This document shows positions 7,344 to 24,705 of a DNA stretch of 42,216 nt, in pieces. Numbering within the stretch: position 1 is the first letter of the stretch; every line of letters begins with the position of its first letter. The notes beneath the pieces were generated by a model. The model made no database searches, was not told the DNA's origin, and saw only the letters and a program-made list of their open reading frames with translations. The position numbers and the translations under genes are program-made. Source of the stretch: Halomicronema sp. CCY15110 (lineage in GTDB: Bacteria; Cyanobacteriota; Cyanobacteriia; Phormidesmidales; Phormidesmidaceae); the NCBI RefSeq assembly GCF_016888165.1, contig NZ_JACSWC010000397.1:1-42216 (forward strand), written 5' to 3'.

Positions 7344-8078
7344 TCAGCCTTTCAACTTCCTGACTTCTTGAGCAGTAGTTTCAATTACGTGAAACTTATC
7401 CAAATGATCTTCAATAAATGTATGCCCTCTCTCTGCCAAAAGATTAATATTTTGGTTTAGGAGCTTAATGTCATCATTCAGCTCAATCAAGAAGTTATGA
7501 GCCGTATCAATAATATTGGCAAGCCTTCTATCAACTGCTTTCAGCAAAATCTCACGGGCAGCAGTATTATCTGAAAACCTTTCCTCAATTTTCTCTAAAT
7601 CTATTGCCGCTTCAGCAAATGCGACATCCTGTAGCTCCTTATACTTGATGGTTTTTTCATATACCAAGGACTGAGCTTGATCTTTCAAGTCAAGCTGCAT
7701 TTGCCCAATCGCCATCACAGCATCAGTGTTTAATTTAGTGAGTTCTTTCTGATACCTCATAATGGCTTCGGAGACACATTTCATGCGTTCTAGCTCTCTG
7801 TCTTTTCTACACTCTTCAATTTCAACCAACACTCTTTGCACTTCAGTTTCTTTCTTGATGGCGAGTGCAGTATCCAGCTCTTTTTCTTCTTTTTTGATCT
7901 TTGCCTCAGCATTGATCATGGCTGTTTCCTGTTCAACTTTAATTTTATGGTCAATCTCCTTCAATTCTATTTGCCTCTTGTGCTCTATGTGCTTCAAAGG
8001 CTCACCAGCCCAGTCAGTGATCATTTTGATGGGCAAATAAACAATGTCATCCAATTTATCAAACATATTTAGTAGCAT
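7344..8078 (-). CDS. coiled-coil protein of unknown function
   Basis: 244 residues, mostly helical and highly charged. A long heptad-rich segment spans roughly residues 30-150 (IELKEIDHKIKVEQETAMI and following). The short N-terminal part (MITDWAGEPLKHIE) is less charged. No transmembrane helix or enzymatic motif is visible. The start ATG abuts the stop of the preceding gene (TAAATG), so translation is probably coupled. It belongs to a set of three coiled-coil genes placed just before the helicase gene. Together they differ from their surroundings by low GC, AAA/GAA-rich codon use and absence of GCGATCGC sites, which suggests a recently acquired cassette. Function unknown; a structural or scaffold partner of the helicase is conceivable. 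Confidence 0.8.
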   Translation of the reverse strand: MLLNMFDKLDDIVYLPIKMITDWAGEPLKHIEHKRQIELKEIDHKIKVEQETAMINAEAKIKKEEKELDTALAIKKETEVQRVLVEIEECRKDRELERMKCVSEAIMRYQKELTKLNTDAVMAIGQMQLDLKDQAQSLVYEKTIKYKELQDVAFAEAAIDLEKIEERFSDNTAAREILLKAVDRRLANIIDTAHNFLIELNDDIKLLNQNINLLAERGHTFIEDHLDKFHVIETTAQEVRKLKG

Positions 8079-9531: not shown

Positions 9532-10395
9532 ATGACTCGCAAAAAACGCTCCATTACCCTCTCCATCGAAGAGCATGAAAAGGCTGAGCTAGAGCAACTA
9601 GCCCTGGACTTTGGGCAAAAATGGGGTGACAGCCCAAATGTGTCCAAATTGTTGAAGGCGATCGCCCAAGGTAAACTTCGCCTCGCGGCTAACCACGACT
9701 GGAGTCGAGATCGGATTGACACCCTCAATGGTTCCCTGAATTTACTGAAGGATCTCGGTGAGCTGGAAAAGGCTACGGAGATGGCGCACTTACTGCTTGA
9801 ACGGAGCGAATTAAGTCTGCCATTACGCCAAGAAATTGAGCATTGGTTAAAACAACCCAGTGCTCCTTGGCGCGTTCATCTCGACAGCTTTATCCGCAGA
9901 CAGCGTCCCTTCTGCCTGACTTACCAAGATGCCGCTGACCGCATCATGACGTTCACCATTCGCCATGCCAAAGTTAAACGCCATGAAGATCGCCAGTATC
10001 TCGACTGCTGGTGCGATGAAACCGAAGACAATCGCGACCTTGAGTCCTTGCAACACAACTGGTCGTTGCGCATCGATCGCATTCCCGATGAAGCCACGAT
10101 TTCACCCGCTGAGGGCCACTGGCAGCCCGAACTCGGGCACCTCGAAGTCGAATTACATCTTCTCAATCAACTCGCTGTCGGCTATCGCACCAAGACGGGG
10201 GCCGACTTGGTCAACGAATGGCTGCCGGAACAGCAAGTACGGCGGGTGGTGCGGCGCCTTCACTACTCGTTTTGGTTCTTTCGTGAAGTGCGCCGCTATG
10301 GGGCTAATTGCGTCATTGTGGGACCGGATGCGGTGCGCGATCGCTTCGCCGAAGACATCGCCCGTCAGTATCAGCAGTACTTCCCTGTTGCTTAA
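9532..10395 (+). CDS. WYL-domain transcriptional regulator
   Basis: 287 residues. The N-terminal 50 residues are a basic helical region (MTRKKRSITLSIEEHEKAEL) likely to bind DNA. A WYL-type ligand-binding domain follows at roughly residues 115-190 (RPFCLTYQDAADRIMTFTIR, then HNWSLRIDRIPDE), and the end is a C-terminal WCX-like part. WYL proteins sense nucleotides or nucleic acids and commonly repress phage-defence operons. The position next to the DISARM-like operon, transcribed away from it, fits that role. A 14-bp inverted repeat just upstream is a candidate binding site. Confidence 0.78.
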   Translation: MTRKKRSITLSIEEHEKAELEQLALDFGQKWGDSPNVSKLLKAIAQGKLRLAANHDWSRDRIDTLNGSLNLLKDLGELEKATEMAHLLLERSELSLPLRQEIEHWLKQPSAPWRVHLDSFIRRQRPFCLTYQDAADRIMTFTIRHAKVKRHEDRQYLDCWCDETEDNRDLESLQHNWSLRIDRIPDEATISPAEGHWQPELGHLEVELHLLNQLAVGYRTKTGADLVNEWLPEQQVRRVVRRLHYSFWFFREVRRYGANCVIVGPDAVRDRFAEDIARQYQQYFPVA

Positions 10396-10974: not shown

Positions 10975-11646
10975 CTAATCCTGCCAGAAGTCTCTGAAGC
11001 GCCCTGGCGACAACTCTGTGTACTTCACCGTGTGCTGGATGTTGCGGTGCCCCAGGTATGCCTGAATTGCCCGCGTGTCATGCCCCTTGGCGGCCAGATA
11101 GTAGCCACAGGCATGACGAAGTTGATGGGGATGCACGGGAAACGCCAACTCTGCCGCCTTCCCCGCTCGCTGAATGATGTTGTGCCCCGTGCGCTCTGTC
11201 ATCGGGCCACCTCGCTCCGTCACGAACAGGTACGGCGTGTCGGGATAATCGCGCTGGAGTTGTCGCAGCGATCGCAGCTCTGGCCCCCGGAGTGGATGAG
11301 TCGCTGGCGTCCCCTTCTTCCGTCGCGCCACGTGGAGCACTCCCGCTTTTAGATCAATCTGGTCCCACCGCAGGGAGATCGCCTCCGATACTCGAAAGCC
11401 GTGGCGATACATGATCATGATCAGCGTTGCATCGCGATGACCGTGGCGACCGATGTTCTTCGCGGCTTGAATGAGCTGATCGACTTCATCGGGGGTGAGG
11501 TGCTCGCGCGATCGCACCGCGTCATTTTTCGGTTTGCGCGGTGGCACGTTGGGCACCTCTTCAAACTTTGCCGAAAATGATGTTTGGGCAGTTTTGTCTG
11601 ACATGGCTCTAAAGATTGAAGCGTCGTTGTCGAATGGAGTGAACAT
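10975..11646 (-). CDS. short tyrosine recombinase (XerC/FimB-like)
   Basis: 223 residues with a complete tyrosine-recombinase catalytic set: R85 (GFRVSEA), K110 or K111, H174-x-x-R177 (HPHQLRHACG), H200 (YLGHRN) and Y209. It lacks the N-terminal SAM-like core-binding domain of full-size integrases, as in FimB/FimE-type invertases. The first 40 residues look unstructured, and MSDKT at residue 15 (11604) is an alternative start. The annotated ATG lies inside one arm of a perfect 13-bp inverted repeat, so either the gene is controlled by that structure or the later start is the real one. Role: DNA inversion or excision at nearby sites. Confidence 0.85.
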   Translation of the reverse strand: MFTPFDNDASIFRAMSDKTAQTSFSAKFEEVPNVPPRKPKNDAVRSREHLTPDEVDQLIQAAKNIGRHGHRDATLIMIMYRHGFRVSEAISLRWDQIDLKAGVLHVARRKKGTPATHPLRGPELRSLRQLQRDYPDTPYLFVTERGGPMTERTGHNIIQRAGKAAELAFPVHPHQLRHACGYYLAAKGHDTRAIQAYLGHRNIQHTVKYTELSPGRFRDFWQD

Positions 11647-11673
11647 TGCCGAAAATGCTCATTTTCGGCAATG
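11644..11673. repeat. perfect 13-bp inverted repeat at recombinase start
   Basis: Arm CATTGCCGAAAAT (11644-11656), spacer GCTC, and exact reverse complement ATTTTCGGCAATG (11661-11673). The sequence TGCCGAAAATG occurs again inside the gene near 11573. On the plus strand a TTTTT tract follows, so it could act as a terminator, but no plus-strand gene precedes it. A recombinase binding or crossover site, or an autoregulatory hairpin, fits the location better. Confidence 0.6.
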
Positions 11674-11717
11674 TTTTTAATTTCTGCGGATTGTCAGGGC
11701 TTTCTGATATTTGTGGA

Positions 11718-12026
11718 CTACTCTGGATCCTCCTCAAATAAAGCGGGCAGATCTTGATAGCCGCTCACGACTCGGAAGATCTCGATCGCGTCATTGAGCA
11801 GACGATAGAAAATCAAATACTGTTTGTAGGGCACACTGCGCAAACCAGGATAGAGTTCATCGCGTTTGCGACCGATTTCTGGAAACTGGGCAATGCGTTG
11901 CAAAGCAGCGTCGATACCACTGAGGAAATCTTCGGCTCTGGTCAAACTACTGTGAGTGGCCAGGTAATCGGCGATCGCCTCAATATCCTGACTGGCCTCC
12001 GGGGTAATGCGGCAGGAGCGGGTCAT
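11718..12026 (-). CDS. parE: ParE/RelE-family toxin
   Basis: 102 residues matching the type II ParE/RelE fold throughout: ITPEASQDIEAIADYL near the N-terminus, then FPEIGRKRDELYPGLRSVPY and YLIFYRLLNDAIEIFRV. ParE toxins poison DNA gyrase, while RelE relatives cleave mRNA; the sequence favours ParE. Its start overlaps the antitoxin stop by 4 nt (ATGA), the usual coupled arrangement with antitoxin first. Confidence 0.88.
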   Translation of the reverse strand: MTRSCRITPEASQDIEAIADYLATHSSLTRAEDFLSGIDAALQRIAQFPEIGRKRDELYPGLRSVPYKQYLIFYRLLNDAIEIFRVVSGYQDLPALFEEDPE

Positions 12027-12286
12027 TGTTGAGCGTGGCGATCGCGAAGGCGCTGACGAATGGCATCAATTTCCGTGGAGGCGTTTAACAGTTCTCCCTG
12101 CTCAGCTTCCGCCGCACCCAGTAAGATCTCTTGCCGTAACTCCTCAAATCGTCCCTGATAAATCTGTTCCCGCTCTGCCAGGGCTTGTAGTCCCGCCAAC
12201 AAAATGTCGTCCAGAGAAGCGTACTTGCCACTAGCGATTTGGCGATCGGTGAATTGTTTTAGGTCAGGGGGCAGCGAAAGGGCCAT
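12023..12286 (-). CDS. parD: ParD-family antitoxin
   Basis: 87 residues. The N-terminal ribbon-helix-helix is recognisable (MALSLPPDLKQFTDRQIASG, then YASLDDILLAGLQALAERE). The C-terminal part is a charged helix expected to wrap the toxin. ParD proteins neutralise ParE and repress their own promoter through the RHH domain. First gene of the two-gene TA operon. Confidence 0.85.
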   Translation of the reverse strand: MALSLPPDLKQFTDRQIASGKYASLDDILLAGLQALAEREQIYQGRFEELRQEILLGAAEAEQGELLNASTEIDAIRQRLRDRHAQQ

Positions 12287-12362: not shown

Positions 12363-14318
12363 TTACTCGCTCTTACCCTGCAAATCCCAGGTCGTTGAAG
12401 CGCCGCAGATGTCGTCAATGGTTTTCTGCACCTTCACCTCGATCAGCCGCATCTTTTGGTCGGGGCGACGTTTGTCGTAGATCCGCTCCAGGGTTTCCAT
12501 GGTATGACCCATGGCTGTTGCTAAGGACTTGAGTTCGGCCAGAGAACTGCTGTTCTCAATCATGTAGACCGCATAGACCGATCGCATCAAGTGCGGGTTC
12601 ATATAACGACGGCCCAATTGCGCATGCATGGTCATGCGGTTAAAGGCCAAAGCGAACTTAGTACCAAAGTCGCCAATTCGAATTGCTTTCCCAGACTTGC
12701 GACCGAGGAAAAACCATCCCGCTGGCTGCTCACCGCTGGCTTCTTCTATCTTCAGGAGTGATGAGCGCAGTTCATGGTATTTGAACTTTTCGTGAGGTCG
12801 CTCTAAGCTGCGGCCTAAACTTACCCAGTTGCCGCGCTTGTCGCGCCAGTAGCCCATTAGGTAAGCCTCTAGAAAGTCGTAGAGTGTTTTGCCCTGATAG
12901 ACTTGTCGATTCAAAATCGTGATCCGCTGGTAACGATGAGAATCGCCGCTCTTGGCGGCACGAGGTGGAGTGTCCTTAAACCACATCGGCACCCGCTCCA
13001 AGTAGCGGTCTGCGGGTGGCATGGTTCCTAGATAGGGGCCAAATTTCTCCCCCGTCTGAGGATCAACATGAACATACTGGCGGGTCAAGTAGCTGAACTT
13101 GATTTCGTCCTGACTCCGGCGATCGCTGGGTAGGGGCCAAATCCATTCACCTTCCCGCAAGTCGTCTGGACGGCTCTTGAGATCACAGGCCATCGCGATT
13201 TTGGCACGGCACCATTCACCCGAACGGCGTGGCGGCATTAAGGTGAATACCGCGAACATGATGGCATTGGCAAAATCATCTGCGATCTTGGTGTCTGACC
13301 GCTTAGACCAAGTGGCCGTGCGGTGTTCAGTCCATCTAAAGGCTGGCAGGGTGACATGATTAATCACATGGGGCAAATCGAGCCATTTCAGTTCCAGGGG
13401 AATCGCGGCCAATTCGTTGCTGGAAAGTTCTTCGTAATAGTTGATTAGCTCGCGTAGACGCCCCATTAGCGGGATATCGTTGCCGTGTTTATTGAGGTAC
13501 TGACCGCGATACTGGTACTGACAAAGCCGAGTCAGGCTAACTAAGTCACTCGAAATCGTCCGATTCACACAGCCGCGTGCGGCCATAAAATCTGCGTATT
13601 CCAGGGCCAAATCTTCAAAATCGTCGATCACCTGGTCGGTCGCTACCTGATCCTGAAAATCGGCCAGACCAATAATGGAATCAAAGGTGAGGCCTTCTTT
13701 CGGGATGCCTCGTTGGTTATGTAGAAAGCCCCAGAATTTACGTACTGCCCGTTGCCGCATCGAACTGGTGGTGTCGCGAATCGATTTTTGACGGCGCTGC
13801 CGTTGCCGTGTCTTCTCCAGGTAATCACCGTAGGTCTTGAGCAGTTGTGCTTGATCAGCCGTCAAATCCTTCTCGGCTAGAGCAAACTTGCTGAAATCAA
13901 TATCGTTTGGCCGGAGCTTGGGTCGCTTCCCAACCGCTTGCGGCTGTTCTGGAATTCGCTTCTGTTTTTGCGTCAGGATAGCAGGATTAATCAGGATGCC
14001 GTTTTCAAAGCACCAATTCACAAAACGTCGAACATGAGAGCGGTGCGCAGAACGATTTTTGTTCTCTTTTTGTTCGACATTAAATCCCGTTTCTAAAACG
14101 GCCTCCCAGTCATATAAACGTTCGATAGGAAGATTGCTTAGAGCATACTCAGTATTTGCTTTGTCGGCCAAAGTCGCTCGCGCCGAGGTCAAACGTGGGA
14201 AGCCTAGACCCACCATCCAGTAGCGGCGGAGTACTGACATCAAATCTCTGAGGTGCTGTTTGTCGTTCGATCTCAGACTCTTCTCGTAGTACTGTAGCGT
14301 TGCATGAATTGTTTGCAT
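12363..14318 (-). CDS. large tyrosine recombinase / integrase
   Basis: 651 residues. The C-terminal half has tyrosine-recombinase residues: Arg in MPPRRSGEW (about residue 362), HxxR in NPHLMRSVY (about 575-578), His in MGHTME (about 603) and the nucleophilic Tyr in ERIYDKRRP (about 612). The long N-terminal half is helical and contains two stretches resembling core-binding segments (HRSHVRRFVNWCFENGIL and RQRAVRKFWGFLHNQRG). It is much larger than phage integrases, resembling integrases that travel with multi-gene transposon-like elements. It is divergent from the two modular HTH proteins across a 240-bp gap. The N-terminal domain layout is uncertain. Confidence 0.8.
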   Translation of the reverse strand: MQTIHATLQYYEKSLRSNDKQHLRDLMSVLRRYWMVGLGFPRLTSARATLADKANTEYALSNLPIERLYDWEAVLETGFNVEQKENKNRSAHRSHVRRFVNWCFENGILINPAILTQKQKRIPEQPQAVGKRPKLRPNDIDFSKFALAEKDLTADQAQLLKTYGDYLEKTRQRQRRQKSIRDTTSSMRQRAVRKFWGFLHNQRGIPKEGLTFDSIIGLADFQDQVATDQVIDDFEDLALEYADFMAARGCVNRTISSDLVSLTRLCQYQYRGQYLNKHGNDIPLMGRLRELINYYEELSSNELAAIPLELKWLDLPHVINHVTLPAFRWTEHRTATWSKRSDTKIADDFANAIMFAVFTLMPPRRSGEWCRAKIAMACDLKSRPDDLREGEWIWPLPSDRRSQDEIKFSYLTRQYVHVDPQTGEKFGPYLGTMPPADRYLERVPMWFKDTPPRAAKSGDSHRYQRITILNRQVYQGKTLYDFLEAYLMGYWRDKRGNWVSLGRSLERPHEKFKYHELRSSLLKIEEASGEQPAGWFFLGRKSGKAIRIGDFGTKFALAFNRMTMHAQLGRRYMNPHLMRSVYAVYMIENSSSLAELKSLATAMGHTMETLERIYDKRRPDQKMRLIEVKVQKTIDDICGASTTWDLQGKSE

Positions 14319-14558
14319 CTGCTTCTCAATTTATCTAGGGTTTTCCGAATTGTTTCAATGTGTGCGGCCCAGTCATTGGAATAATAGCAAAAAGCGTAAA
14401 TTACGGAAGCCCTTAAATGATCTTTGGTTTGGCGATTTTGTCGAACAAATAGCTATATATAGAAAATCGCTTTATCTAACACCAAGATCTGTGAAAATAT
14501 TGCTAAATAAGGATTAGAATCGTTTCTAAACCGGTCAACGTGATAGTAGCTTTTGTCT
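14319..14558. promoter_or_regulatory. divergent AT-rich intergenic region between integrase and modular HTH genes
   Basis: 240 bp, clearly more AT-rich than the flanks. It contains an 8-bp inverted repeat, GCGATTTT (14432-14439) and AAAATCGC (14463-14470), enclosing GCTATATATAG, itself symmetrical. This is the natural place for promoters in both directions, for an operator bound by the HTH proteins, or for an integrase site. No small ORF or RNA was recognised. Confidence 0.4.
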
Positions 14559-15242
14559 ATGAATTCTCCTCCAACGAGCTGGGCCCCTGACTGGCAGGCA
14601 GCTCTGGTCAATGCCACCCTTGGGATCATCTGTTATCGCGAAGGACTGACTGGGAAAGAATTTGCGACTCTGGCAGGTGTCTCAGTTGGAGTCGTACATG
14701 AGCATGCCAAGGCTGGTCTAGCTCATTTTCAAACGCGCTTTGGCGAGCAGTGCTCTTTTCGCAAAGTTCATGACTCAAAATTTCAAATCGCTCGCCTGGT
14801 GTTCACCTTCGGCGGCGTGATCAGGCCCGCTGCCAGTAAGCCGCCATTGCCTGGATTGCTATCACTGCCTCAGTTTTGTGAGCAACAACAGGTGAAGGAT
14901 TGGCTGGTCAGACGCGAAGTCCGTAGGGGGCACGCGGCGTTTCGACGGCACTTCCCGGAATGGGATTTTCTTGAGCAAACGTACCCCTTTAGCAACTGGA
15001 CGGCTCGTTGGTTTGGGCGTATTGAGGACATTGGCGAGCAACCGGATGCTCCGCCAGACGAGACGGCCCTAACCATCTACAAATTGGCTCATTTGGTCGG
15101 CGTTCATTATCAAACGGTGCGTCGATTTAGAGATCAGGGACTCGAACGCTTTGAGCAGCGGTTTCCGGGGTGGAGCTTTCGTCAGGAAGGCCGAACGTTC
15201 GTCTACTGTCGCAAAGTTGAGGAGTTTCCCCATGCCCCCTGA
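14559..15242 (+). CDS. modular protein of three helix-turn-helix-like repeats
   Basis: About 227 residues from ATG 14559 (a TTG two codons earlier is also possible). It consists of three modules of roughly 60-70 residues. Each starts with a putative HTH and ends in a phenylalanine-rich (R)FP(G/E)W-x-F motif: LTGKEFATLAGVSVGVVHEH, LSLPQFCEQQQVKDWLVRRE and LTIYKLAHLVGVHYQTVRRF. The second module is followed by WFGRIEDIG, also present in the next gene. Excisionase/MerR-like winged HTH domains look similar, but I cannot name a family. It overlaps the next gene by 11 nt and is divergent from the 651-aa integrase, so DNA binding in the control or directionality of recombination is a reasonable guess. 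Confidence 0.72.
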   Translation: MNSPPTSWAPDWQAALVNATLGIICYREGLTGKEFATLAGVSVGVVHEHAKAGLAHFQTRFGEQCSFRKVHDSKFQIARLVFTFGGVIRPAASKPPLPGLLSLPQFCEQQQVKDWLVRREVRRGHAAFRRHFPEWDFLEQTYPFSNWTARWFGRIEDIGEQPDAPPDETALTIYKLAHLVGVHYQTVRRFRDQGLERFEQRFPGWSFRQEGRTFVYCRKVEEFPHAP

Positions 15243-16485
15243 GAGTTGGAATAGCCAATGGCAGGTCGCGCTGTTTGAGGCTAAGAAAGAGACGCCTTTT
15301 CTGAAATCGGGCATTTCATCGGTCGAGTTTGGCCAACTGGCAGGAGTGAGTTCTGGCAATGTCAGCGTTCATGCTGCCCGAGGGAAAGACCACTTCCGAA
15401 AGCGGTTTGCGGAGGATTGTGATTTTTGGGAAGTGGAGAAAAGCAAAATGCAGCATTGCCTCCCTTATCGCAGGCTGTTCACGTTTTATGGGACGTTGCA
15501 TCCGGCTGAATTGTATCGGTATGGTTTGTGGCTGCTGACGCTAGAGGATTTTGCCAAACGTCAGACGGTTGCGTTGGAGGAGGTGCAGCGCCTCGTTCGC
15601 AAGGGACATGAGGCGTTTCGAGAGCGATTTCCGGAATGGGAGTTTTTTACCCGCAAGCAATATGGCCAGTCTCCTTTGGAATACTGGTTTGGGCGCATTG
15701 AAGATTTGGGTGCCCGCGAGGATGCTAACCCCATTCCGGAGGATTTTTTGACGACGGAGCAGTTTGCGCGGCTACAGGGGCTAGAGCCGGTGGCGGTGTT
15801 CCGGGCAACCAGAGCCGGGAGAGAGGCCTTTCAAGCGCGGTTTCCGGGATGGAGCTTCTTTGGGCTCCGTAGTCAGCGATTTCGCTTTGTGCGTTTGGGC
15901 GATGCGGCTGAACTCTTGACGATTCAGAGCTTTATGAAACGGGCGGGCATCACGTTTTATCAGCTGAAGACACTGCTGGAACAGGGGCAATTTTCACAGA
16001 CGTTCCCAGGGTACCGGGCGCAAGGAACGGGTTTTAAGAGTGTGCGCTGGATTATTTTTCGGCAGCCGGGGGCCAAGCTGTGGGAGCCGCCCGCTAAAGC
16101 GATGCCCATTGCCCGATTCGCCAAAATCGTTCAGCTTCCTCTGGCAACCCTCAATAGCTACCTGAAGAACAACGCCCTTAATCAGGTATTTCCGGGGTGG
16201 CAGGCGGTTCAGCGCCCCAGGAACATGAAGTGGTTTTTGTATCCGGCGGATGCGGATGCACCGAATCCACCGCTGAGTGCAGTTGAGCTGTATGGTCTGT
16301 TTTCCATGCAGGAGGCAAGTGTGGCGTTGGAAGTGAGCAGCAGTCGAGTGGAGGTATGGGTAAGTACGCCTCGGCTGTTGCGAGAAAAGGCTCCGGGATG
16401 GACGGTGGTGCGTCTGACTTTTAGGGGCAAGTCGGTGTGGCTGAAGCCACCGCAGTGCTTGTTGACGGAGCGGCCAGAAGCCTGA
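15232..16485 (+). CDS. modular protein of six helix-turn-helix-like repeats, paralogue of preceding gene
   Basis: 417 residues from ATG 15232 (MPPESWNSQWQVAL), chosen because it aligns with the start of the upstream paralogue (PPTSWAPDWQAAL); an earlier in-frame ATG at 15151 would overlap too far. The first three modules match the preceding protein in order, including WFGRIEDLG after module 2. Three further modules follow: SFMKRAGITFYQLKTLLEQ, RFAKIVQLPLATLNSYLKN and SMQEASVALEVSSSRVEVW. Most modules close with FPGW/FPGY/APGW. Such an array could read a long or repeated DNA site. It converges with the lectin-fold gene, 65 nt away. Function unknown. Confidence 0.74.
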   Translation: MPPESWNSQWQVALFEAKKETPFLKSGISSVEFGQLAGVSSGNVSVHAARGKDHFRKRFAEDCDFWEVEKSKMQHCLPYRRLFTFYGTLHPAELYRYGLWLLTLEDFAKRQTVALEEVQRLVRKGHEAFRERFPEWEFFTRKQYGQSPLEYWFGRIEDLGAREDANPIPEDFLTTEQFARLQGLEPVAVFRATRAGREAFQARFPGWSFFGLRSQRFRFVRLGDAAELLTIQSFMKRAGITFYQLKTLLEQGQFSQTFPGYRAQGTGFKSVRWIIFRQPGAKLWEPPAKAMPIARFAKIVQLPLATLNSYLKNNALNQVFPGWQAVQRPRNMKWFLYPADADAPNPPLSAVELYGLFSMQEASVALEVSSSRVEVWVSTPRLLREKAPGWTVVRLTFRGKSVWLKPPQCLLTERPEA

Positions 16486-16506: not shown

Positions 16507-16551
16507 GCGCTGCGCGCCAGCAGAGGGAAAGAGGGCAAAAGCGCAGAGCGC
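16507..16551. repeat. post-VR hairpin, copy 1
   Basis: GCGCTGCGC (16507-16515) pairs with GCGCAGAGCGC (16541-16551), leaving a 2-nt bulge. It abuts the stop codon of the first lectin-fold gene, and the surrounding 80 bp (about 16484-16568) is nearly identical to 18824-18907 downstream of the vWA-FGE gene. DGR target genes usually carry a hairpin just after the variable repeat that promotes retrohoming, which this resembles. Here it could also terminate the convergent genes, but copy 2 is not between convergent genes. Confidence 0.55.
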
Positions 16552-17381
16552 TAGGAGAAGCCTGGGGCCGTAGCTTGCTTCTGCGGAGCAGTACAACAAA
16601 CGCGAAAACCGAGACCGTTGCTGCGGTCGCCGGGCGTAATGTTGTAGCGGTACGCGGAGCGGCAGAACCACGGAAAGACGAAACAAGAGCCGCCGCGTAG
16701 GATACGCCCTCCTTGATTGCCGCCCTCTGTCCAAGCACTACCGTCTGTCGGCGCACCCTCGTAATTGTCGTGCCAAACATCCTGGCACCATTCCAATATG
16801 TTGCCGTGCATGTCACATAGGCCGAAGTCGTTGGCAACTTGAAAGCTGCCAACTGGAGTAGTTTTCTCTCGGTACTTACCCTTGGGGCCATCGGCAAAAG
16901 CATAGTTGCCATCGTAATTGGCAAGTTCGGAGGAGATCGTCTCGCCAAAGTGGAATGGGGTGGTGGTACCCGCGCGACAGGCATATTCCCATTCGGCTTC
17001 GCTGGGCAAGCGATAGGGGCGTTGGGTGTGCTCAGCTAAGCGGGCACAGAACTCTACAGCTTCGTGCCAGTTCACTTGCTCTACCGGGCGATCGCCCCCT
17101 TTGAATTTGGCAGGATCACGCTTCAGTTCAATCTCTTGCTGGGGTAGCTCAGCGACAAACCGCCACTGGGCCTGAGTCACCGGAAAGCGACCGAGGAAAA
17201 AGCTGGGGATACTCACACGATGTTGCGGGCCTTCACTATCTCGACGCTCCGGCTCATCGGCTGGAGAGCCCATCAGAAACTCGCCAGCGGGAATCAGCAT
17301 CATGTCGAGGCCAAGATCGCCCAGAGGTTCGGTGTACCCTTGAGCTTGATGGCGGGTGCGCTGGAGGATGAGTTCGGGCAT
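16551..17381 (-). CDS. FGE-sulfatase/C-type-lectin-fold protein, putative DGR variable protein 1
   Basis: 276 residues from ATG 17381 (MPELILQRTRHQAQ), chosen because it aligns with the start of the second copy; an upstream ATG would only add translated purine-rich repeat. The whole protein is an FGE-sulfatase (SUMF1-like) domain: MMLIPAGEFLMGSP, PVTQAQWRFVAEL, YRLPSEAEWEYACRAGT, GLCDMHGNILEWCQDVW, ending RGGSCFVFPWFCRSAYR and GFRVCC. The last 60 residues hold the variable region. The Cys spacing of true formylglycine-generating enzymes is absent, so it is probably a ligand-binding lectin fold, not an enzyme. Last gene of the MoxR-vWA-VMAP cluster. Confidence 0.85.
   Translation of the reverse strand: MPELILQRTRHQAQGYTEPLGDLGLDMMLIPAGEFLMGSPADEPERRDSEGPQHRVSIPSFFLGRFPVTQAQWRFVAELPQQEIELKRDPAKFKGGDRPVEQVNWHEAVEFCARLAEHTQRPYRLPSEAEWEYACRAGTTTPFHFGETISSELANYDGNYAFADGPKGKYREKTTPVGSFQVANDFGLCDMHGNILEWCQDVWHDNYEGAPTDGSAWTEGGNQGGRILRGGSCFVFPWFCRSAYRYNITPGDRSNGLGFRVCCTAPQKQATAPGFS
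16593..16690 (-). repeat. putative DGR variable repeat VR1
   Basis: Compared with VR3, ten codons differ in the alignable stretch after the RGGS(C/W) motif. In all ten the third base is the same (for example TTC/CTC, GTC/TTC, TTT/AGT, ATT/GAT, AAC/CGC, CTC/ATC). The intervening codons (TGC CGC TCC GCG, GGT TTT CGC) are identical in DNA. Every variable codon can be derived from AAC or AAT, or from a codon with one A, by mutation of adenines only. The one exception at the edge is TGT against TGG. Confidence 0.8.
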
Positions 17382-17382
17382 G

Positions 17383-17463
17383 GGGCAGGAGATAGGAGTT
17401 AGGAGATAGAAGGCAGGAGATAGGAGATAGAAGGCAGGAGGGAGGAGACGGGAGTTAGGAGAG
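17383..17463. repeat. purine-rich short-unit repeat
   Basis: Degenerate tandem units of (A/T)AGGAGATAG(A)AGGCAGGAG between the four-helix-bundle gene and the first lectin-fold gene. The same sequence type occurs in reverse orientation at about 17881-17920, so the four-helix-bundle gene is flanked by inverted low-complexity repeats. A weaker version lies just upstream of the second lectin-fold gene (about 18772-18805). Not a CRISPR: the units are short and contiguous with no unique spacers. Confidence 0.6.
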
Positions 17464-17811
17464 GGAGCGGATGTAGGCGTTGAGGAGTTTGCCAACTTCG
17501 TCGAGTTGGGTCTTGAGGCTTATGGTATCGCCGTACCCCAGGTCTTGGGTCAAGATCAGGTAATACTGGCATTCTTCGAGGGAGCCTTGGGCGATGTTCA
17601 TCATGCGGGCTTTGTCGGCCTTGGTTTTACGCTTAAAGCCTTCGGCGATATTGGCAGGAATCGAAACCGCTGCTCGTCCGAGTTGAGACGTGAGGCCATA
17701 GGTCTCTGTTCGGGGGAAGTCTTCACTGTGTTTGTAAACAGCCAACACAAACTGATGGGCTTTTTGCCAGACGATGAGATCTTGAAAGGATCGGGCTGGC
17801 GATCGGGTCAT
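17455..17811 (-). CDS. four-helix-bundle protein (S23/IVP family), candidate DGR accessory protein Avd
   Basis: 118 residues matching the S23 / 23S-rRNA-intervening-sequence family of four-helix bundles (PF05635-like): FQDLIVWQKAHQFVLAVY, SQLGRAAVSIPANIAEGFKR, GSLEECQYYLILTQDLGY. The DGR accessory protein Avd has the same fold and is a basic pentamer that binds reverse transcriptase and template RNA. Because this gene lies between two genes with DGR-like variable regions, an Avd role is possible. The sequence itself looks like the generic S23 family, which is widespread without DGRs, so this is inference. Inverted purine-rich repeats flank the gene. Confidence 0.85.
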   Translation of the reverse strand: MTRSPARSFQDLIVWQKAHQFVLAVYKHSEDFPRTETYGLTSQLGRAAVSIPANIAEGFKRKTKADKARMMNIAQGSLEECQYYLILTQDLGYGDTISLKTQLDEVGKLLNAYIRSLS

Positions 17812-17880
17812 GGCAGGTAGGAGTGTGAATTTAGGAGACAGGAGAGCGGCACAATATCTACTCCAATGATTCCCATTGAC

Positions 17881-17920
17881 TGCTTCTACCTTCTATCTCC
17901 TACCTCCTCAACTCCTGCTC
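17881..17920. repeat. pyrimidine-rich repeat, inverted relative to 17383-17463
   Basis: Reverse-complement version of the AGGAGATAGAAGG repeat found on the other side of the four-helix-bundle gene. The rest of the gap 17812-17934 holds nothing else I recognise except the end of the post-VR sequence of the second lectin-fold gene. There GCTCT (17917-17921) can pair with AGAGC (17929-17933). Confidence 0.5.
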
Positions 17921-17934
17921 TAAAGCGCAGAGCG

Positions 17935-18768
17935 CTAAGAGAAGCCTGGGGCCGTAGCTTGCTTCTGCGGAGCAGTACAACAAATCCGAAAACCGAAATC
18001 GACGAAGCGGGAGCCGGGGTTATCGTAGGCGTGAGACGCGGAACGGCAGTACCCCGGAGAGCTGCCCCAAGAGCCGCCGCGTGCTACTCGTCTGTCTTGA
18101 TTTCCACCTTCTGTCCAAGCACTGCCGTCAGTCGGCGCTCCGTCATAGTTGTCGTGCCACACGTCCTGACACCACTCCCATACATTACCGTGCATATCGC
18201 AGAGACCAAAGGCATTGGCGGTTGTAAAGTGATCGACAGAGGTTGTTTTTTCCCGATATTCGCCGATTGGGCCGCCATCAAAAGCGGCAGTGCCATCGTA
18301 GTTGGCTAAGTCGGTTGTAATCGTCTCACCAAAATGAAACGGGGTGGTGGTGCCAGCGCGACAGGCATATTCCCACTCAGTTTCACTGGGAAGGCGATAG
18401 GGGCGTCCGGTGTAGGCTGCGAGGCGGGCACAAAACTCCACCGCTTCGTGCCAGTTCACTTGCTCTACTGGGTTCATGTCGCCCGGAAATTTAGCTGGAT
18501 CGGGGTTCAGTTCAGTTTCGACCTGGGGTAAACCTGCCACAGCTCGCCATTGGGCTTGAGTTACCGGGTACGTGCCCATAAAGAAGCTTGGCACCGTTAC
18601 CTGATGCTGGGGGCCTTCGCTGTCAAACCGCTCCAGCTCATCCTGTGGGGAGCCCATGAGAAAGGTGCCCGCAGGGATGAGGGTCATTTCCAGATCAATC
18701 CCATCGCCCAGTGACTCAATAAAGTATTGGGCTTGGTAGCGTTGGCGGTTAAGGGTGAGTTCGGCCAT
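17935..18768 (-). CDS. FGE-sulfatase/C-type-lectin-fold protein, putative DGR variable protein 2
   Basis: 277 residues (MAELTLNRQRYQAQYFIESL), a single FGE-sulfatase domain colinear with the first copy: MTLIPAGTFLMGSP, PVTQAQWRAVAGL, YRLPSETEWEYACRAGT, GLCDMHGNVWEWCQDVW, RGGSWGSSPGYCRSASH, FGFRICC. It ends with the same QKQATAPGFS tail as copy 1. The tail DNA contains AGAAGC and GCTTCT arms that could form a hairpin. The paired catalytic cysteines of formylglycine-generating enzyme are missing, so a binding role is more likely. It lies 121 nt downstream of the vWA-FGE gene. Confidence 0.87.
   Translation of the reverse strand: MAELTLNRQRYQAQYFIESLGDGIDLEMTLIPAGTFLMGSPQDELERFDSEGPQHQVTVPSFFMGTYPVTQAQWRAVAGLPQVETELNPDPAKFPGDMNPVEQVNWHEAVEFCARLAAYTGRPYRLPSETEWEYACRAGTTTPFHFGETITTDLANYDGTAAFDGGPIGEYREKTTSVDHFTTANAFGLCDMHGNVWEWCQDVWHDNYDGAPTDGSAWTEGGNQDRRVARGGSWGSSPGYCRSASHAYDNPGSRFVDFGFRICCTAPQKQATAPGFS
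17977..18074 (-). repeat. putative DGR variable repeat VR2
   Basis: Against VR1, sixteen codons differ in the core, and in fourteen the third base is shared (TTC/GGC, GTC/AGC, TTT/TCT, TGG/GGG, TAC/GCC, AGC/TTC, GGT/GAT and others). The exceptions (TAC/TCT, ACG/AAC), plus CGT for CGC and CGG ATT for CGC GTT at fixed positions, suggest that VR2 copied a slightly different template or has drifted since its last round. Confidence 0.72.
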
Positions 18769-18845
18769 AGGGAAGGGAACGGGAGTCAGAAGTTAGAAGA
18801 CAGAATGGCTATTTCCAGATACTCAAAATCGCCGAAAAATTCGAG

Positions 18846-18890
18846 GCGCTGCGCGCCCGCAAAGGGCAAGAGGGCAAAAGCGCAGAGCGC
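18846..18890. repeat. post-VR hairpin, copy 2
   Basis: GCGCTGCGC (18846-18854) with GCGCAGAGCGC (18880-18890), same stem and position relative to the stop codon as copy 1, inside a duplicated block of about 80 bp. It stands between two tandem genes of the same operon, so a terminator role is unlikely. An element tied to the variable region is the better reading. Confidence 0.55.
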
Positions 18891-21559
18891 TAGGAAAGAC
18901 CTGGGGCCGAACAACAAACGCGAAAACCGATAACGCGGCTGCGGTCGTCGGGCGTATCGTTGAGGCGGTACGCGGAGCGGCAGAACCACGCACTGAAGAG
19001 CCAAGAGCCGCCGCGAGTCACTCGTCTGTCCTGATTACCTCCCTTTGTCCAAGCACTACCGTTCGTCGGTGCTCCCTCATAATTGTCATGCCATACGTCT
19101 TGACACCACTCATAGACATTGCCGTGCATATCGCTGAGCCCCCACTGATTGGCGGGAAAGCTACCCACGGCTGTAGTCTTCCCGCGATTTTGTCCCTTGG
19201 GGCCATCGTTGTAGGCATAGCTGCCGTCATAGTTGGCCAAATCAGGCGTGATCATCTCACCAAAGTGAAAGGGTGTCTGAGTCCCCGCCCGACAGGCATA
19301 TTCCCACTCCGCCTCACTGGGTAACCGATACTCCCGCTGGGCATACGCTGAGAGTCGCCGACAAAACTCCTGGGCCTCTTCCCAACTCACCCTCTCCACT
19401 GGCAAGTCATCCCCTTTGAAGTTTGATGGTTCCGGGTTTAGCTCAAGCCCAACCTGTGGCAACCCTGCGACAAAACGCCATTGAGCCTGCGTCACCGGAT
19501 ACTGTCCGATCAAAAAGCTGGTCATTGTCACCTCGTGCTGCGGCCCCTCGGCGCTGGACCGCTCAGGCTCATCCTCTGGCGAGCCCATCACAAAGCTGCC
19601 ACTAGGCACCCACACCATCTCCAGCATCAAATCATCCCCCAGTCGCTCTACCAGGCGTCGCCCCTGGCCCCGCCGTTGGGTAATCTGCCAGCGGGGTTGC
19701 CACAGTCTAGAAAAGAACCGTCGCTGCGCCTTCTGAATCGTTGCAGTCTCAAACTCAAAGGACTCCAGAACCTCCCTCGATAGTTCCAGCTCAATAGTTA
19801 TCACCTCAAACTCTTTCGTGCGTAGCTCCGGCCAAGCTGCCGCAGCGGGCACAAACTTTGCCACCTCAAACTCAAACGTCTTCAACGGCGGGAAATTGGT
19901 TTCCGTGGAAGAGGTCGGAGTCTCGGTCGTAGATGGCGGGGTGGCCGGTTGTTCAAACAGTTGTAACCATTCCACATATTCCGGCCCCATCCGTTCTAAT
20001 GTCCGCCGCGCTAAATAAGCAAACCGCGCCACCTGCCCCGCTGCCTCATCATTCAATCCCAGATCGGGCGTCAGCAACGCCTCAAGGGTGCGAGTCCCCA
20101 AGCCCCAACGCTCAGAGAGATAGGCTGATACAGCGTCTAGTATCTTTTCGGTGGTAGGTACATCCACCGCATCCGTCAGCAGATCCCGCACCTCCTCGTT
20201 CACAAAATCGTAGACCTGGCTATGGCCTCCCTCCGGCCTCTCAGTGCGCGTCATGCAGATGAGGCCACTCATAAACACCTCCGCCACATGCACCTGCCGC
20301 GCCTCTGGCAGCAACGTCTGCCGCAGCAAATCGGTGATTTCCGGACTCACGGGCACCGCCGCCATCATCCCTGCCAATCGCTGGGCCACAATCGACGCCC
20401 CACCCCGAAACCGTCGCACCAAGGCCAGGGGCTCTGTATCCTCAGACGTTTGGGCTGCTGGCGGGGGAATATTAGCCCAATCAAACTGCACCGCCGCCGC
20501 TCGGTCTTCCCCTGCGCCAACCAGCACCCTCGCCCAAGACTTAATTGAGTTCGGCTCCACGGTTACCACCGGCACCGTCAGCGTAGCGGGTGACGGCTCG
20601 CTATCTGATTCATCCGCCAAAAAGTCGAGCGGGGCCTCGACCTGCCAGTTCGCGGTCACAGTACCGGGGGTGAGTGACTTGACCCACACGGGTGTCCCTT
20701 CCCCCAAGGCGCTCCGCTCCCATAACCGCTGGGGTAACAGCTGCATCACCGTCGTGGGGGCATAGGCTTCCCATAATTCTAGCCAGCGATATATCGAGCT
20801 TTGCCGCCACAGCGCCGACGTGCAATCGCTGACCAACAAAATCAGCCGCCGCCCCGCCGGGTCGATCAGTTCTTTGGGACTGCGCGATCGCTGCCCTGGT
20901 CGCGGCGCATGGTTGCCCGAAAATAGCTGCGGTTGCCCTGACTCAGAAGCCGTTAGCCGCCAAGACTGCACCGTGCGGAATGCACCCTGCCGCTCTGTGA
21001 GCAGTCGCAGCTCTTGGATTAGCGATCGCCAAATGGGCGTGGAATCCGTCTCTTCCACCACCAGGGCCAACTCCAGCCAGCGCTCCGCTGCCGGACGCAT
21101 CACCGGCAACCAGACATCCTGCTCCGCGATTTGATTCGCCGTTGCTTCTTCATCCAGATATTCTCGATTGAGCGCCGCTACCTTGCGCATCAAGGGCCGT
21201 AGGGCTCGCCCTAGTTCTAACCGAGTGCGCAACGCTGGTGCGGCTGGAGCCGACACAGCAATGCCACCGGAGGGCGACTTGCGAGTTTGTTGTTCCCCCG
21301 CGGCTGAAGAATCGCGCTGGGTCACGGCCACGCGATCTAGCGGGGGCAGCTCCGACAGCGGTAAGTCTTCGCCCCAGACGACTTCGACCTCGTTATCGTC
21401 ATCTTCGCTCGGGTCAGGGGCGATCGGCGGGATTGCTCCCGTCTGGTTTGCCAGCCAGAGAATATCCATCAAATCTTCAGCATAGAGATTCAACTTCACC
21501 TGCTTCAGCACATCGGTGAAGTTCTCAAACTCAGGAATGCCAAAGTCAGGATTGCTCAT
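18890..21559 (-). CDS. vWA (SAV_2336-type)-FGE fusion, ternary-system sensor and putative DGR variable protein 3
   Basis: 889 residues. About 105-330: a von Willebrand A-like domain of the SAV_2336 type (WLELALVVEETDSTPIWRSL, then RLILLVSDCTSALWRQSSIY), with a degenerate MIDAS (EETDS in place of DxSxS). About 330-560: a helical region (YDFVNEEVRDLLTDAVDVPT). About 560-640: a linker with three EFE(V/T) strands. About 640-889: an FGE-sulfatase/C-type-lectin domain (MVWVPSGSFVMGSP to GFRVCC) with a variable C-terminus. In MoxR-vWA-VMAP systems the vWA protein couples sensing to the MoxR ATPase, and here the sensing part would be the lectin fold. Its ATG overlaps the MoxR stop (ATGA). Confidence 0.85.
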   Translation of the reverse strand: MSNPDFGIPEFENFTDVLKQVKLNLYAEDLMDILWLANQTGAIPPIAPDPSEDDDNEVEVVWGEDLPLSELPPLDRVAVTQRDSSAAGEQQTRKSPSGGIAVSAPAAPALRTRLELGRALRPLMRKVAALNREYLDEEATANQIAEQDVWLPVMRPAAERWLELALVVEETDSTPIWRSLIQELRLLTERQGAFRTVQSWRLTASESGQPQLFSGNHAPRPGQRSRSPKELIDPAGRRLILLVSDCTSALWRQSSIYRWLELWEAYAPTTVMQLLPQRLWERSALGEGTPVWVKSLTPGTVTANWQVEAPLDFLADESDSEPSPATLTVPVVTVEPNSIKSWARVLVGAGEDRAAAVQFDWANIPPPAAQTSEDTEPLALVRRFRGGASIVAQRLAGMMAAVPVSPEITDLLRQTLLPEARQVHVAEVFMSGLICMTRTERPEGGHSQVYDFVNEEVRDLLTDAVDVPTTEKILDAVSAYLSERWGLGTRTLEALLTPDLGLNDEAAGQVARFAYLARRTLERMGPEYVEWLQLFEQPATPPSTTETPTSSTETNFPPLKTFEFEVAKFVPAAAAWPELRTKEFEVITIELELSREVLESFEFETATIQKAQRRFFSRLWQPRWQITQRRGQGRRLVERLGDDLMLEMVWVPSGSFVMGSPEDEPERSSAEGPQHEVTMTSFLIGQYPVTQAQWRFVAGLPQVGLELNPEPSNFKGDDLPVERVSWEEAQEFCRRLSAYAQREYRLPSEAEWEYACRAGTQTPFHFGEMITPDLANYDGSYAYNDGPKGQNRGKTTAVGSFPANQWGLSDMHGNVYEWCQDVWHDNYEGAPTNGSAWTKGGNQDRRVTRGGSWLFSAWFCRSAYRLNDTPDDRSRVIGFRVCCSAPGLS
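18911..19008 (-). repeat. putative DGR variable repeat VR3
   Basis: Third member of the variable set, codons TGG CTC TTC AGT GCG TGG after RGGS. Ten codons differ from VR1, all with the same third base. The identical end GGTTTTCGCGTTTGTTGT (18911-18928, minus strand) is the expected initiation-of-mutagenic-homing position. Confidence 0.8.
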
Positions 21560-22557
21560 ACCCCGTCGCGACTATCCAACCGTTTGAGAATCGCCTTAAT
21601 TAAATCTTCTCGGGTCGTCCCTTGAGGCGACAGTTGCCCTTGACTGACCAGATAAATAGCATTGAGCAACTGATCGGTCGCCATCTCGCCTTCGGTGCGC
21701 TGCGCTAGAAACGCTTTAATGCGCTTGGTCACCTCATCCGCGTCGGGCTCTCCCAAATGGGCGGCCACAATCCGCCGCAGTCTTGGTTCTAGGGGCTCGG
21801 CCATATCCAACCGCAAACAGCGCCGCAAAAAGGCGGGCGGAAAGTCCCGTTCGCCATTGCTCGTCAACACCACAAAGGGAAAATTGGTACAGCGTACTCG
21901 TCCCTTCGTCACCGTGGCGTAGGCGTCACTGTCCTCATCGGCGACATCGGCACTGCTGTAGGCCGTCTGCACGTTCACCGTGGGCTGGGTGGTGGCAATG
22001 CGTGTCAGCTCGGGAATGGTGTATTCCCCGTTTTCAAACACATGGAGCAAGTCATTCGGCAAATCTACGTCGCTCTTATCAATTTCATCAATCAGGAGTA
22101 CGCGGGGGCGTTCTGACGGCAGTAGCGCTGTGCCCAGTGGCCCCAGGGTGATGTACTTGCCAATGCGATTCAGACTGTCCTCTGGGTTCAGCTTGGCATC
22201 CTGCAAGCGGCCTACCGCGTCGTAGTTGTAGAGTCCATCTTTCAACGTGGTGCGGGTCGTAATCGGCCAGTACAGCACTTCCCCTAAGTCCAGCTCATAG
22301 GCGACGGAATAAGCCAGAGATGTTTTGCCCGTGCCAGGATTGCCCGTGACCAGCAGCGGTCGCCGCAAATACAGCGCCGCATTCACCATATTCACCTCTT
22401 CTTCTTCCGCGTAGAAGAGCGCTCCCCGATGGGATTGCTCATTTTCCGCTTCCGCCGCCGAATGCTGCTGGGTAAAGGTGCGCCAACTGGGAGGGGGTGG
22501 CAGTTGCCACTCGCTATGGGGGGTGCGGTTATTTTTATAGACTTTCCAGTCGTTCAT
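21556..22557 (-). CDS. MoxR-type AAA+ ATPase of the ternary conflict system
   Basis: 333 residues. Walker A GNPGTGKTS (72-80), Walker B VLLIDEID (153-160), sensor 1 VVLTSNGER (229-237) and an arginine-finger-like FLRRCLRLDM follow in MoxR order. The N-terminal 45 residues (NDWKVYKNNRTPHSEWQLP) are typical of MoxR proteins that pair with vWA partners in these operons. It is expected to act as a chaperone-like ATPase remodelling the vWA and VMAP partners when a signal is sensed. ATGA overlaps with the genes on both sides indicate one translationally coupled operon. Confidence 0.9.
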   Translation of the reverse strand: MNDWKVYKNNRTPHSEWQLPPPPSWRTFTQQHSAAEAENEQSHRGALFYAEEEEVNMVNAALYLRRPLLVTGNPGTGKTSLAYSVAYELDLGEVLYWPITTRTTLKDGLYNYDAVGRLQDAKLNPEDSLNRIGKYITLGPLGTALLPSERPRVLLIDEIDKSDVDLPNDLLHVFENGEYTIPELTRIATTQPTVNVQTAYSSADVADEDSDAYATVTKGRVRCTNFPFVVLTSNGERDFPPAFLRRCLRLDMAEPLEPRLRRIVAAHLGEPDADEVTKRIKAFLAQRTEGEMATDQLLNAIYLVSQGQLSPQGTTREDLIKAILKRLDSRDGV

Positions 22558-24356: not shown

Positions 24357-24360
24357 GCGA

Positions 24361-24705
24361 TCAGTCAGCCTTTGCCTCGTCACCTTTCCACTTGAGAGTG
24401 ACTTCAAAGTTAACTTGCCCGCCTACGGAAGAAAACACCACCCCCGCATCCACGCTCAAATTCAATCCAAACTTGACTTCCACCTCATCAGCGGGTGTGG
24501 TCAGTCCTGTTTTGAACCGAGTCGCGATCGATGAGACGACGGGACGGACCTGGGCGATCGCCTCTTCAAAACTCTTCGTCGCTCGATAAACCATCTGCCC
24601 ATCCACCGATACGGGCTCTAAAGCGCTCTCTGATTCGGGTTCCGGAACCTCGATCAGGAAGGTGCCACCACCTTCTAGCTGAAACTCTGCGAGGGCTCTG
24701 TCCAA
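24361..24705 (-). CDS. Trypco1 (CU044_2847) family protein
   Basis: 114 residues, first gene of the operon. The sequence fits the trypsin-co-occurring domain 1: FLIEVPEPE at the start, YRATKSFEEAIAQVRPVVSS in the middle, and VEVKFGLNLSVDAGVVFSS with VNFEVTLKW at the end. The family is known by its linkage to trypsin-VMAP proteins; its biochemical role is unsettled, possibly binding or restraining the protease. The start is TTG at 24705, supported by GGAGAAG about 6 nt upstream. It is 4 nt upstream of the protease gene. Confidence 0.85.
   Translation of the reverse strand: MDRALAEFQLEGGGTFLIEVPEPESESALEPVSVDGQMVYRATKSFEEAIAQVRPVVSSIATRFKTGLTTPADEVEVKFGLNLSVDAGVVFSSVGGQVNFEVTLKWKGDEAKAD

Follow-up and report, generated by a model that had tools for sequence, protein, structure and literature searches.

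Cyanobacterial proteins built from tandem predicted winged helix-turn-helix modules, encoded beside a large tyrosine recombinase

Two overlapping array genes lie divergent from a recombinase gene

The window analyzed here, i.e., the whole stretch of 42,216 nucleotides, comprises positions 1 to 42,216 (forward strand) of contig NZ_JACSWC010000397.1 from Halomicronema sp. CCY15110 (assembly GCF_016888165.1); it is contig C331 of the 6.1-Mb genome that we refer to as G000. It hosts two overlapping genes for proteins made of repeated modules, designated array proteins A and B, and, divergent from them, the gene for a large tyrosine recombinase. Related loci are that of Phormidium tenue (P. tenue; L021), that of genome G433 (L022), and L026. 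The features of the locus are listed below; module ranges were supported by a leave-one-out hidden Markov model (HMM) test, a module profile, or AlphaFold2, as given.

12363..14318, minus strand: tyrosine recombinase, 651 amino acids (aa; P0003); PHROGs integrase match and catalytic residues
14319..14558, no strand: divergent intergenic region common to the recombinase and array genes; alignment of the 4 array loci and L026
14330..14338, plus strand: candidate site TTTATCTAG, adjoining the recombinase start; TTTATNTAR pattern
14453..14462, no strand: palindrome CTATATATAG, once per array locus and always in the intergenic region
14471..14479, plus strand: candidate site TTTATCTAA; TTTATNTAR pattern, same orientation
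14559..15242, plus strand: array protein A, 227 aa, three modules; ATG start
14640..14837, plus strand: module A1; leave-one-out HMM, module profile
14853..15044, plus strand: module A2; leave-one-out HMM, module profile
15060..15227, plus strand: module A3; leave-one-out HMM, module profile; sub-threshold HTH_17/MerR match
15232..16485, plus strand: array protein B, 417 aa, six modules; read from the ATG at 15232
15307..15516, plus strand: module B1; leave-one-out HMM, module profile, AlphaFold2
15529..15720, plus strand: module B2; leave-one-out HMM, module profile, AlphaFold2
15742..15915, plus strand: module B3; module profile, AlphaFold2; folded alone with a predicted local distance difference test (pLDDT) score of 87.8
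15910..16089, plus strand: module B4; leave-one-out HMM, module profile, AlphaFold2; cut from an alignment, with two codons common to the B3 range
16099..16266, plus strand: module B5; leave-one-out HMM, module profile, AlphaFold2
16294..16452, plus strand: module B6, the weakest; fails the leave-one-out test, predicted topology the same as in the others

The A and B genes overlap by 11 bp, and their products and the recombinase are all basic (isoelectric points of 9.2 to 9.7). The 651-aa protein matched the PHROGs integrase profile (5.2e-8), fell under the cut-off of the NCBIfam XerD-type model (E 0.003), and had no Pfam integrase match; when compared by hhalign, five small integrases aligned with it over the PHxxR region at a low probability (17.9%, E 0.0014). 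The catalytic set of tyrosine recombinases is R-K-H-R-(H/W)-Y. Residues R364, R365, K456, H576, R579, and Y614 are invariant in 9 of 9 aligned recombinases, and H605 is found in five of the nine, the remaining four having T, M, T, and S. Judged by these positions, the protein is a tyrosine recombinase that keeps its catalytic residues. The initial annotation, made from the sequence alone, had placed the array genes divergent from such a recombinase, and the coordinates and the R-K-H-R-Y set bear this out.

The array proteins consist of three and six related modules

Alignment of A with B revealed 43% identity across ~210 residues, and modules 1 to 3 therefore stand in the same order in both proteins, as had been proposed. 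In pairwise local alignments, 14 of the 36 module pairs exceeded all 300 shuffles, and the other 22 did not. Modules at the same position matched best (A1-B1, Z 35; A2-B2, Z 24; A3-B3, Z 9), and cross-position pairs also matched (B2-B3, Z 13; B4-B5, Z 7; A3-B4, Z 6); the pairs not above shuffles included A1-A2 (Z 1.3), B1-B4 (Z −1.2), and all pairs with B6. The leave-one-out HMM test placed 8 of the 9 modules above every one of 1,000 shuffles, with B6 failing (4.0 bits vs 8.5 for the best shuffle); B6 is counted as a module on the basis of its predicted structure.

In addition, 24 modules, taken from the genomes of G000, G170, and P. tenue, served to build a module profile. Within this training set, it counted three modules in A, six in B, three and six in the two G170 proteins, and six in the one array protein of P. 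tenue (479 aa), whose order by eye is types 1-2-3-4, a linker, and then 1-2 again. In G433, which lies outside the training set, the profile found two good modules and a fragment, the contig end falling inside the array gene. Collectively, the repeat tests and the predicted structure agree with the earlier claim of two overlapping genes carrying three and six copies of one module.

Each module is predicted to adopt a small winged helix-turn-helix fold

AlphaFold2 prediction of B together with five relatives gave a mean pLDDT of 75 and a predicted template modeling score (pTM) of 0.47, and all six modules of the model display the order helix-helix-short helix-strand-strand (hairpin). A single module folded with 26 aligned rows reached a pLDDT of 87.8 and a pTM of 0.70, and in this model the FPGW motif (residues 34 to 37) forms the turn joining the short helix to the wing. 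Each module is thus predicted to be a small winged helix-turn-helix (wHTH), a DNA-binding type of fold, in line with the HTH-like character first suggested for the modules.

Fold searches with the six-module model indicated little more than "winged helix." Comparison of one module with the Foldseek candidates using VIA-align, in which absence from the lists does not exclude a family, placed TraN at the top (Z 5.0, 2.9 Å, 54 residues), and further matches included BldC (Z 4.7, 2.8 Å, 45 residues, 22% identity), RacA (Z 4.5), the phage P2 protein 4lhf, which we take to be Cox (Z 4.2), and the excisionases Pukovnik Xis (Z 4.2, 2.2 Å, 43 residues), RdfS (Z 3.8), and Tn916 Xis (Z 3.6).

At the sequence level, B matched the PHROGs family "Cox-like excisionase and repressor" at 3.7e-5 over the whole protein, and the matches of A were to an excisionase family (0.0014) and to further HTH families (2e-4 upward). 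The PADLOC mad1 model also matched B (1.3e-5), the best stretch being 28 residues and none passing alone. Neither A nor B had a Pfam or NCBIfam family above the cut-off, which agrees with the initial impression of no described family; sub-threshold Pfam matches were to HTH_17, MerR, and AbiEi-type profiles, and module A3 stayed below the curated cut-offs (HTH_17, 19 bits vs 27; MerR_1, 16.2 vs 21.6). In the open-access literature, we found no tandem HTH or winged-helix protein tied to a recombinase, integrase, or excisionase, in a search that other wording would escape.

Arrays occur together with one clade of recombinases

Of the 63 family genomes, four had arrays (G000, G170, G428, and G433), and the same four carry a close recombinase: the window's own, one at 80% identity in G170, one at 47% in G433, and one in two pieces (36 and 56%) in G428. 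Three other genomes of the family hold distant recombinases only (27–28% identity). At all four array loci, the recombinase is adjacent and divergent. The comparative search for such pairs that the initial annotation suggested therefore shows that the pairing recurs elsewhere.

A profile search of 386 genomes of the phylum yielded arrays in G000 and G170 only. G307, a candidate carrier in the phylum search with B (9e-4), was rejected: its match is an 80-aa frame with three stops and was absent from the profile search. A pattern scan of GTDB 220 with the recombinase alignment (one genome per species; not exhaustive, since G170 was missed) returned three loci, two of them in genomes with G433- and G428-type arrays and the third, L026, new. 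Organisms identified by name as carrying a related recombinase are Nodosilinea sp. WJT8-NPBG4, Phormidium tenue FACHB-1052, and one metagenome-assembled cyanobacterium. The L026 recombinase is 92% identical in DNA to that of P. tenue, and the match ends at L021:9197, between the recombinase and the array. Phylogenetic analysis grouped the array-type recombinases into one clade (support 100/100) in which four of the five members have arrays and L026 is sister to P. tenue (100/99), in a tree for which the program warns that long branches meet.

Searches of mobile elements gave no further arrays. We found no match in plasmids or phages by tblastn with B, in plasmids (the only records searched) with P0007 and P0001, or in phages with the recombinase, and viral-contig scans confirmed 0 of 59 pattern matches with the array alignment and 0 of 51 with the recombinase alignment. 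The module HMM, applied to 18 sources, matched in the window, L013, L021, and L022 only, and given its training on G000, G170, and P. tenue, G433 (L022) is the sole independent find. It identified no array beside the other large recombinases of G000 and G170 (L045 to L048); four plasmid loci, L104 to L107, were covered by the plasmid tblastn searches instead of the HMM scan.

The shared intergenic region contains conserved candidate sites

Alignment of the four intergenic regions and that of L026 uncovered conserved blocks amid diverged sequence. The stretch that the initial annotation singled out for footprinting (14319-14558) does contain conserved candidate sites. Each of the four array loci has a single copy of the palindrome CTATATATAG, always in the shared intergenic region, and the palindrome is found in 0 of 11 other loci scanned, L026 included. 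In addition, the pattern TTTATNTAR is present in nine copies in the four regions, all on the array-gene strand, where 0.5 would be expected, and 0 of 500 shuffles reached this count. The patterns were, however, picked after viewing the alignment, and the four regions are related to each other, so the shuffle counts make the case look stronger than it is. A combined pattern of CTATATATAG plus TTTAT, set with a spacing one base off (the window's own site needs three mismatches), found none in the loci and 64 matches in the window's own genome vs 86 for a backward control.

Predicted recognition helices diverge faster than the rest of the arrays

Between G000 and G170, identity is 80% for the recombinase, 65% for A, and 60% for B. 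The predicted recognition (second) helix of B is 38% identical vs 63% for the rest, with 6 of 416 shifts as low, and that of A, whose helix limits were taken from the alignment to B and not from a model of its own, is 43% identical vs 68% (4 of 226 shifts as low). The rate of nonsynonymous substitution (dN) in the B recognition helix is 0.58 vs 0.10–0.33 in the other elements, and identity in the last wing strand of B amounts to 86%. The ratio of dN to synonymous substitution (dS), determined by the Nei-Gojobori method, is ~0.06 (recombinase), 0.09 (A), and 0.25 (B), at a dS of 1.3–2.7 that is near saturation, and the recognition-helix ratio is well under 1. Within the helix, 17 of 63 exposed-like and 25 of 36 buried-like positions are kept.

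As a control, we used LuxR-type proteins (6 reciprocal pairs from 10 G000 and 8 G170 proteins), in which the helix is 93–100% identical and equals or exceeds the rest of the protein in all six pairs; in one pair, it is slightly under the rest of the HTH domain (0.93 vs 0.97). The LuxR proteins are 88–98% identical outside the helix and hence far more conserved than the arrays, which makes the comparison unmatched. The divergence of the array helices may mean either that their targets change or that an exposed helix is only weakly constrained.

Proposed function of the arrays and alternative explanations

We postulate, at about an even chance, that the arrays are accessory DNA-binding proteins of the recombinase, acting as a recombination directionality factor (excisionase) and also as a repressor at the shared promoter region. 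This proposal draws on the predicted wHTH fold, the weak profile and structure matches to excisionases, the basic character of the proteins, the pairing with the recombinase, and the candidate sites between the genes. We infer that they would bind and bend DNA, controlling excision, and would repress the recombinase gene from the shared promoter region. Ordinary wHTH directionality factors are small, align along direct repeats, and bend the DNA. Three or six pre-linked modules (four plus two in P. tenue) would amount to a head-to-tail wHTH filament in one chain, and a single array protein could cover an entire site with no need to assemble. Stepwise DNA reading, as first imagined for the modules, is a plausible hypothesis.

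Several results weigh against the directionality factor proposal. Foldseek gave no match with E < 0.001 for either the six-module or the one-module model, all VIA-align scores are weak (Z < 6), and many MarR proteins reach Z 4.3, meaning that non-excisionases score equally. The Cox-like match of B sums over repeats, with no single stretch reaching E 1, and the P. tenue array matches the same family at 0.082. To our knowledge, no directionality factor with six modules has been described. Flank-against-flank comparison in G000 and G170 uncovered no repeats above chance. In L026, no array follows the recombinase within the locus, leaving one of five clade members array-less; since L026 is sister to P. 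tenue within the array clade, this looks like a loss of the arrays. The conserved intergenic sites may be promoter elements, and recognition helices that diverge while the intergenic motif is kept are not expected of a pure autorepressor.

The arrays could instead be target selectors. Each would then read, one module after another, a long DNA sequence specific to the species and guide the recombinase to the site where it inserts. Such a role would fit a predicted recognition helix that is the fastest-changing array element in both A and B, next to LuxR-type helices whose conservation equals or exceeds that of the remaining protein in 6 of 6 pairs, and also the variation in array length and arrangement between genomes and the location of the units at different loci in different genera, judged by their neighbors. 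However, G000 and G170 have the array-side flank in common, so one would expect them to have similar targets; weak constraint can let exposed helices drift, and the helix dN/dS is well below 1; the LuxR comparison is unmatched, one of its helices being slightly below the rest of the domain; and the A helix limits were set by alignment to B. On balance, we consider a target selector unlikely. A specific version, in which a wHTH chain with fast-diverging recognition helices chooses the DNA site of the recombinase at a few base pairs per module, i.e., a naturally re-targeted modular reader that works with a tyrosine recombinase, strikes us as rather unlikely.

The divergent layout and the conserved sites in the shared region would equally suit dedicated transcriptional regulators that control the divergent promoters, perhaps those of conflict-system genes, and have no role in recombination; the sub-threshold HTH_17, MerR, and AbiEi-type profiles and the MarR- and MerR-type structure matches point the same way. 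Some of the profile matches, however, are excisionase families, and the arrays track the recombinase rather than the VMAP-type conflict genes, a cassette of which stands beside the arrays in G000 and G170; no such cassette was seen by eye in 19 kb of P. tenue, and the far side of the G433 locus lies beyond the contig end. We regard this explanation as quite improbable. It is very unlikely that the locus is a remnant, i.e., a mobile element in decay with nonfunctional arrays that are kept by chance. The P. tenue recombinase split by an IS1-like element, the array-less L026, and the lack of flanking repeats found in G000 and G170 are what decay would leave, but all three genes are open throughout in G000 and G170 with a low dN/dS, and a last wing strand of B that stays 86% identical while the helix drifts is unlike neutral decay.

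Distant recombinases have other small neighbors

Nine plasmid records, all cyanobacterial and 15–55 kb in size, hold relatives of the recombinase at 21–27% identity. These plasmid recombinases are large (~650–710 aa), 7 of the 9 are annotated as hypothetical proteins, and the plasmid type sits on a tree branch separate from the array clade. In the L041 recombinase, which was taken as a plasmid one and aligned residue by residue, R-R-K-H-R-Y is kept. Four of six small neighbor proteins tested near distant recombinases had sub-threshold ribbon-helix-helix matches, and a YDE[LI]K motif seen in those small proteins was found near five of eight distant recombinases and at 0 of 5 array-clade loci. 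By profile or motif, a ribbon-helix-helix-like protein occurs near all eight (in L025, downstream and on the other strand). The four plasmids L104 to L107 each have a small upstream gene with a sub-threshold ribbon-helix-helix match, and the ParD-like antitoxin of the window, downstream of the recombinase, has a sub-cut-off match to a family of this type. A small DNA-binding partner thus seems usual for large recombinases, and the arrays may fill its place in one recombinase clade.

Proteins of 340–390 aa, alike by eye, also lie beside distant recombinases (L023:9198-10328, L025:8727-9755, and L041:8320-9489); two have no Pfam match and one a sub-threshold match to DUF3847.

Element ends and neighboring genes

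In P. tenue, the array and recombinase are bounded by a 31-nucleotide imperfect direct repeat (81% alike; L021:7382-7412 and 12834-12864) that scored above all 100 resampled flank pairs and whose 14-nucleotide core has exactly two copies in that genome. It is a possible att pair. The right copy lies just before a small integrase gene, and because a similar sequence precedes the relative of that gene in G406, the att reading is weakened, and the repeat may instead be part of the sequence upstream of the small integrase. On the array side, G000 and G170 keep the same neighbor genes, and on the recombinase side, their match ends 4 bases past the recombinase stop codon. An empty-site search with the gene on the right flank in P. 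tenue gave matches in 24 of the 26 genomes of that genus; apart from the P. tenue copy itself, these were at 42–52% identity.

The P. tenue recombinase is split by an IS1-like insertion at L021:10136-11203 (two open frames, named by eye). Two copies of CCCATAACGTTATGGGTAAA, spaced 284 bp apart (L021:7061-7090 and 7345-7374), lie just past the P. tenue array gene on its 3′ side, each forming the center of a palindrome. The window encodes a 223-aa Phage_integrase protein (10975-11676) with the palindrome ACATTGCCGAAAATGAGCATTTTCGGCAATGT just before it; this pair recurs near the large recombinase of both L022 and L026. Where the homology between P. tenue and L026 ends, there is a degenerate palindrome with no small integrase. 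Between the small and large integrases of the window (11718-12286) are the genes for a ParE-type toxin and a ParD-like antitoxin (below cut-off), and at 9532-10395 is that for a 287-aa protein with a WCX-domain match just below the cut-off, possibly a WYL-type regulator.

Beyond the arrays, the window carries a VMAP-type conflict system (16551-24407) with a VMAP-C/VMAP-M1/trypsin protein, an AAA protein, and FGE-sulfatase proteins. The cassette adjoins the G000 arrays and also, judged by gene order and DNA similarity, those of G170; systems of this type appear in PMC7159879. One side of the array-less L026 recombinase (L026:1-15494) has a Tn7-like integrase/AAA/TniQ set, named by eye, and an MZB-domain protein, and the other has CRISPR-like repeats and type III CRISPR-type genes, also by eye.

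Comparison with known systems

Ordinary directionality factors are single modules, and we know of no recombinase involved with TraN, which has two domains of the kind. TraN of Enterococcus, titled a double-stranded-DNA-binding protein, gave the best VIA-align row for an array module; unlike the arrays, it is titled a type IV secretion protein and has 112–117 residues in the listed chains. The window recombinase differs from the plasmid recombinases, which have a ribbon-helix-helix-like protein nearby and no array found, in having arrays.

BldC is a MerR-like, single 68-residue developmental regulator that forms head-to-tail multimers on direct repeats (PMC5859096). The arrays share with it the idea of serial modules along DNA, in addition to the weak structure match, whereas they are multi-module and beside a recombinase, BldC being single, with no recombinase tie given in the abstract of PMC5859096.

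Known wHTH directionality factors are small and form assemblies on DNA (PMC11963761 and PMC7498355). RdfS binds attP and its own promoter and forms filaments (PMC11963761), and Apl, both excisionase and regulator, bends DNA and binds cooperatively on direct repeats with low specificity per monomer (PMC7498355). Because Apl combines low per-monomer specificity with strong cooperativity, it appears, by analogy, as likely that an array would coat a site cooperatively as that it would read a sequence code. In Apl- and RdfS-type assemblies of small subunits, the number and order of subunits are hard to control or study; a natural protein with its subunits joined beforehand in a set order would make it possible to test directly the number and order required and sequence reading vs DNA coating. 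Should the modules read sequence, they would provide a compact, modular scaffold for DNA recognition that is tied to a recombinase.

Like the wHTH directionality factors (Apl, P2 Cox, RdfS, and lambda/Tn916 Xis), the arrays are basic, predicted to be wHTH, and encoded beside a tyrosine recombinase, with candidate same-strand sites in the shared promoter region and weak PHROGs Cox-like and Xis/RdfS structure matches. Unlike them, the arrays have a short helix before the wing and consist of 3 to 6 covalently linked modules. Since each chain carries three or six modules and not one, we do not consider the arrays plain members of this group.

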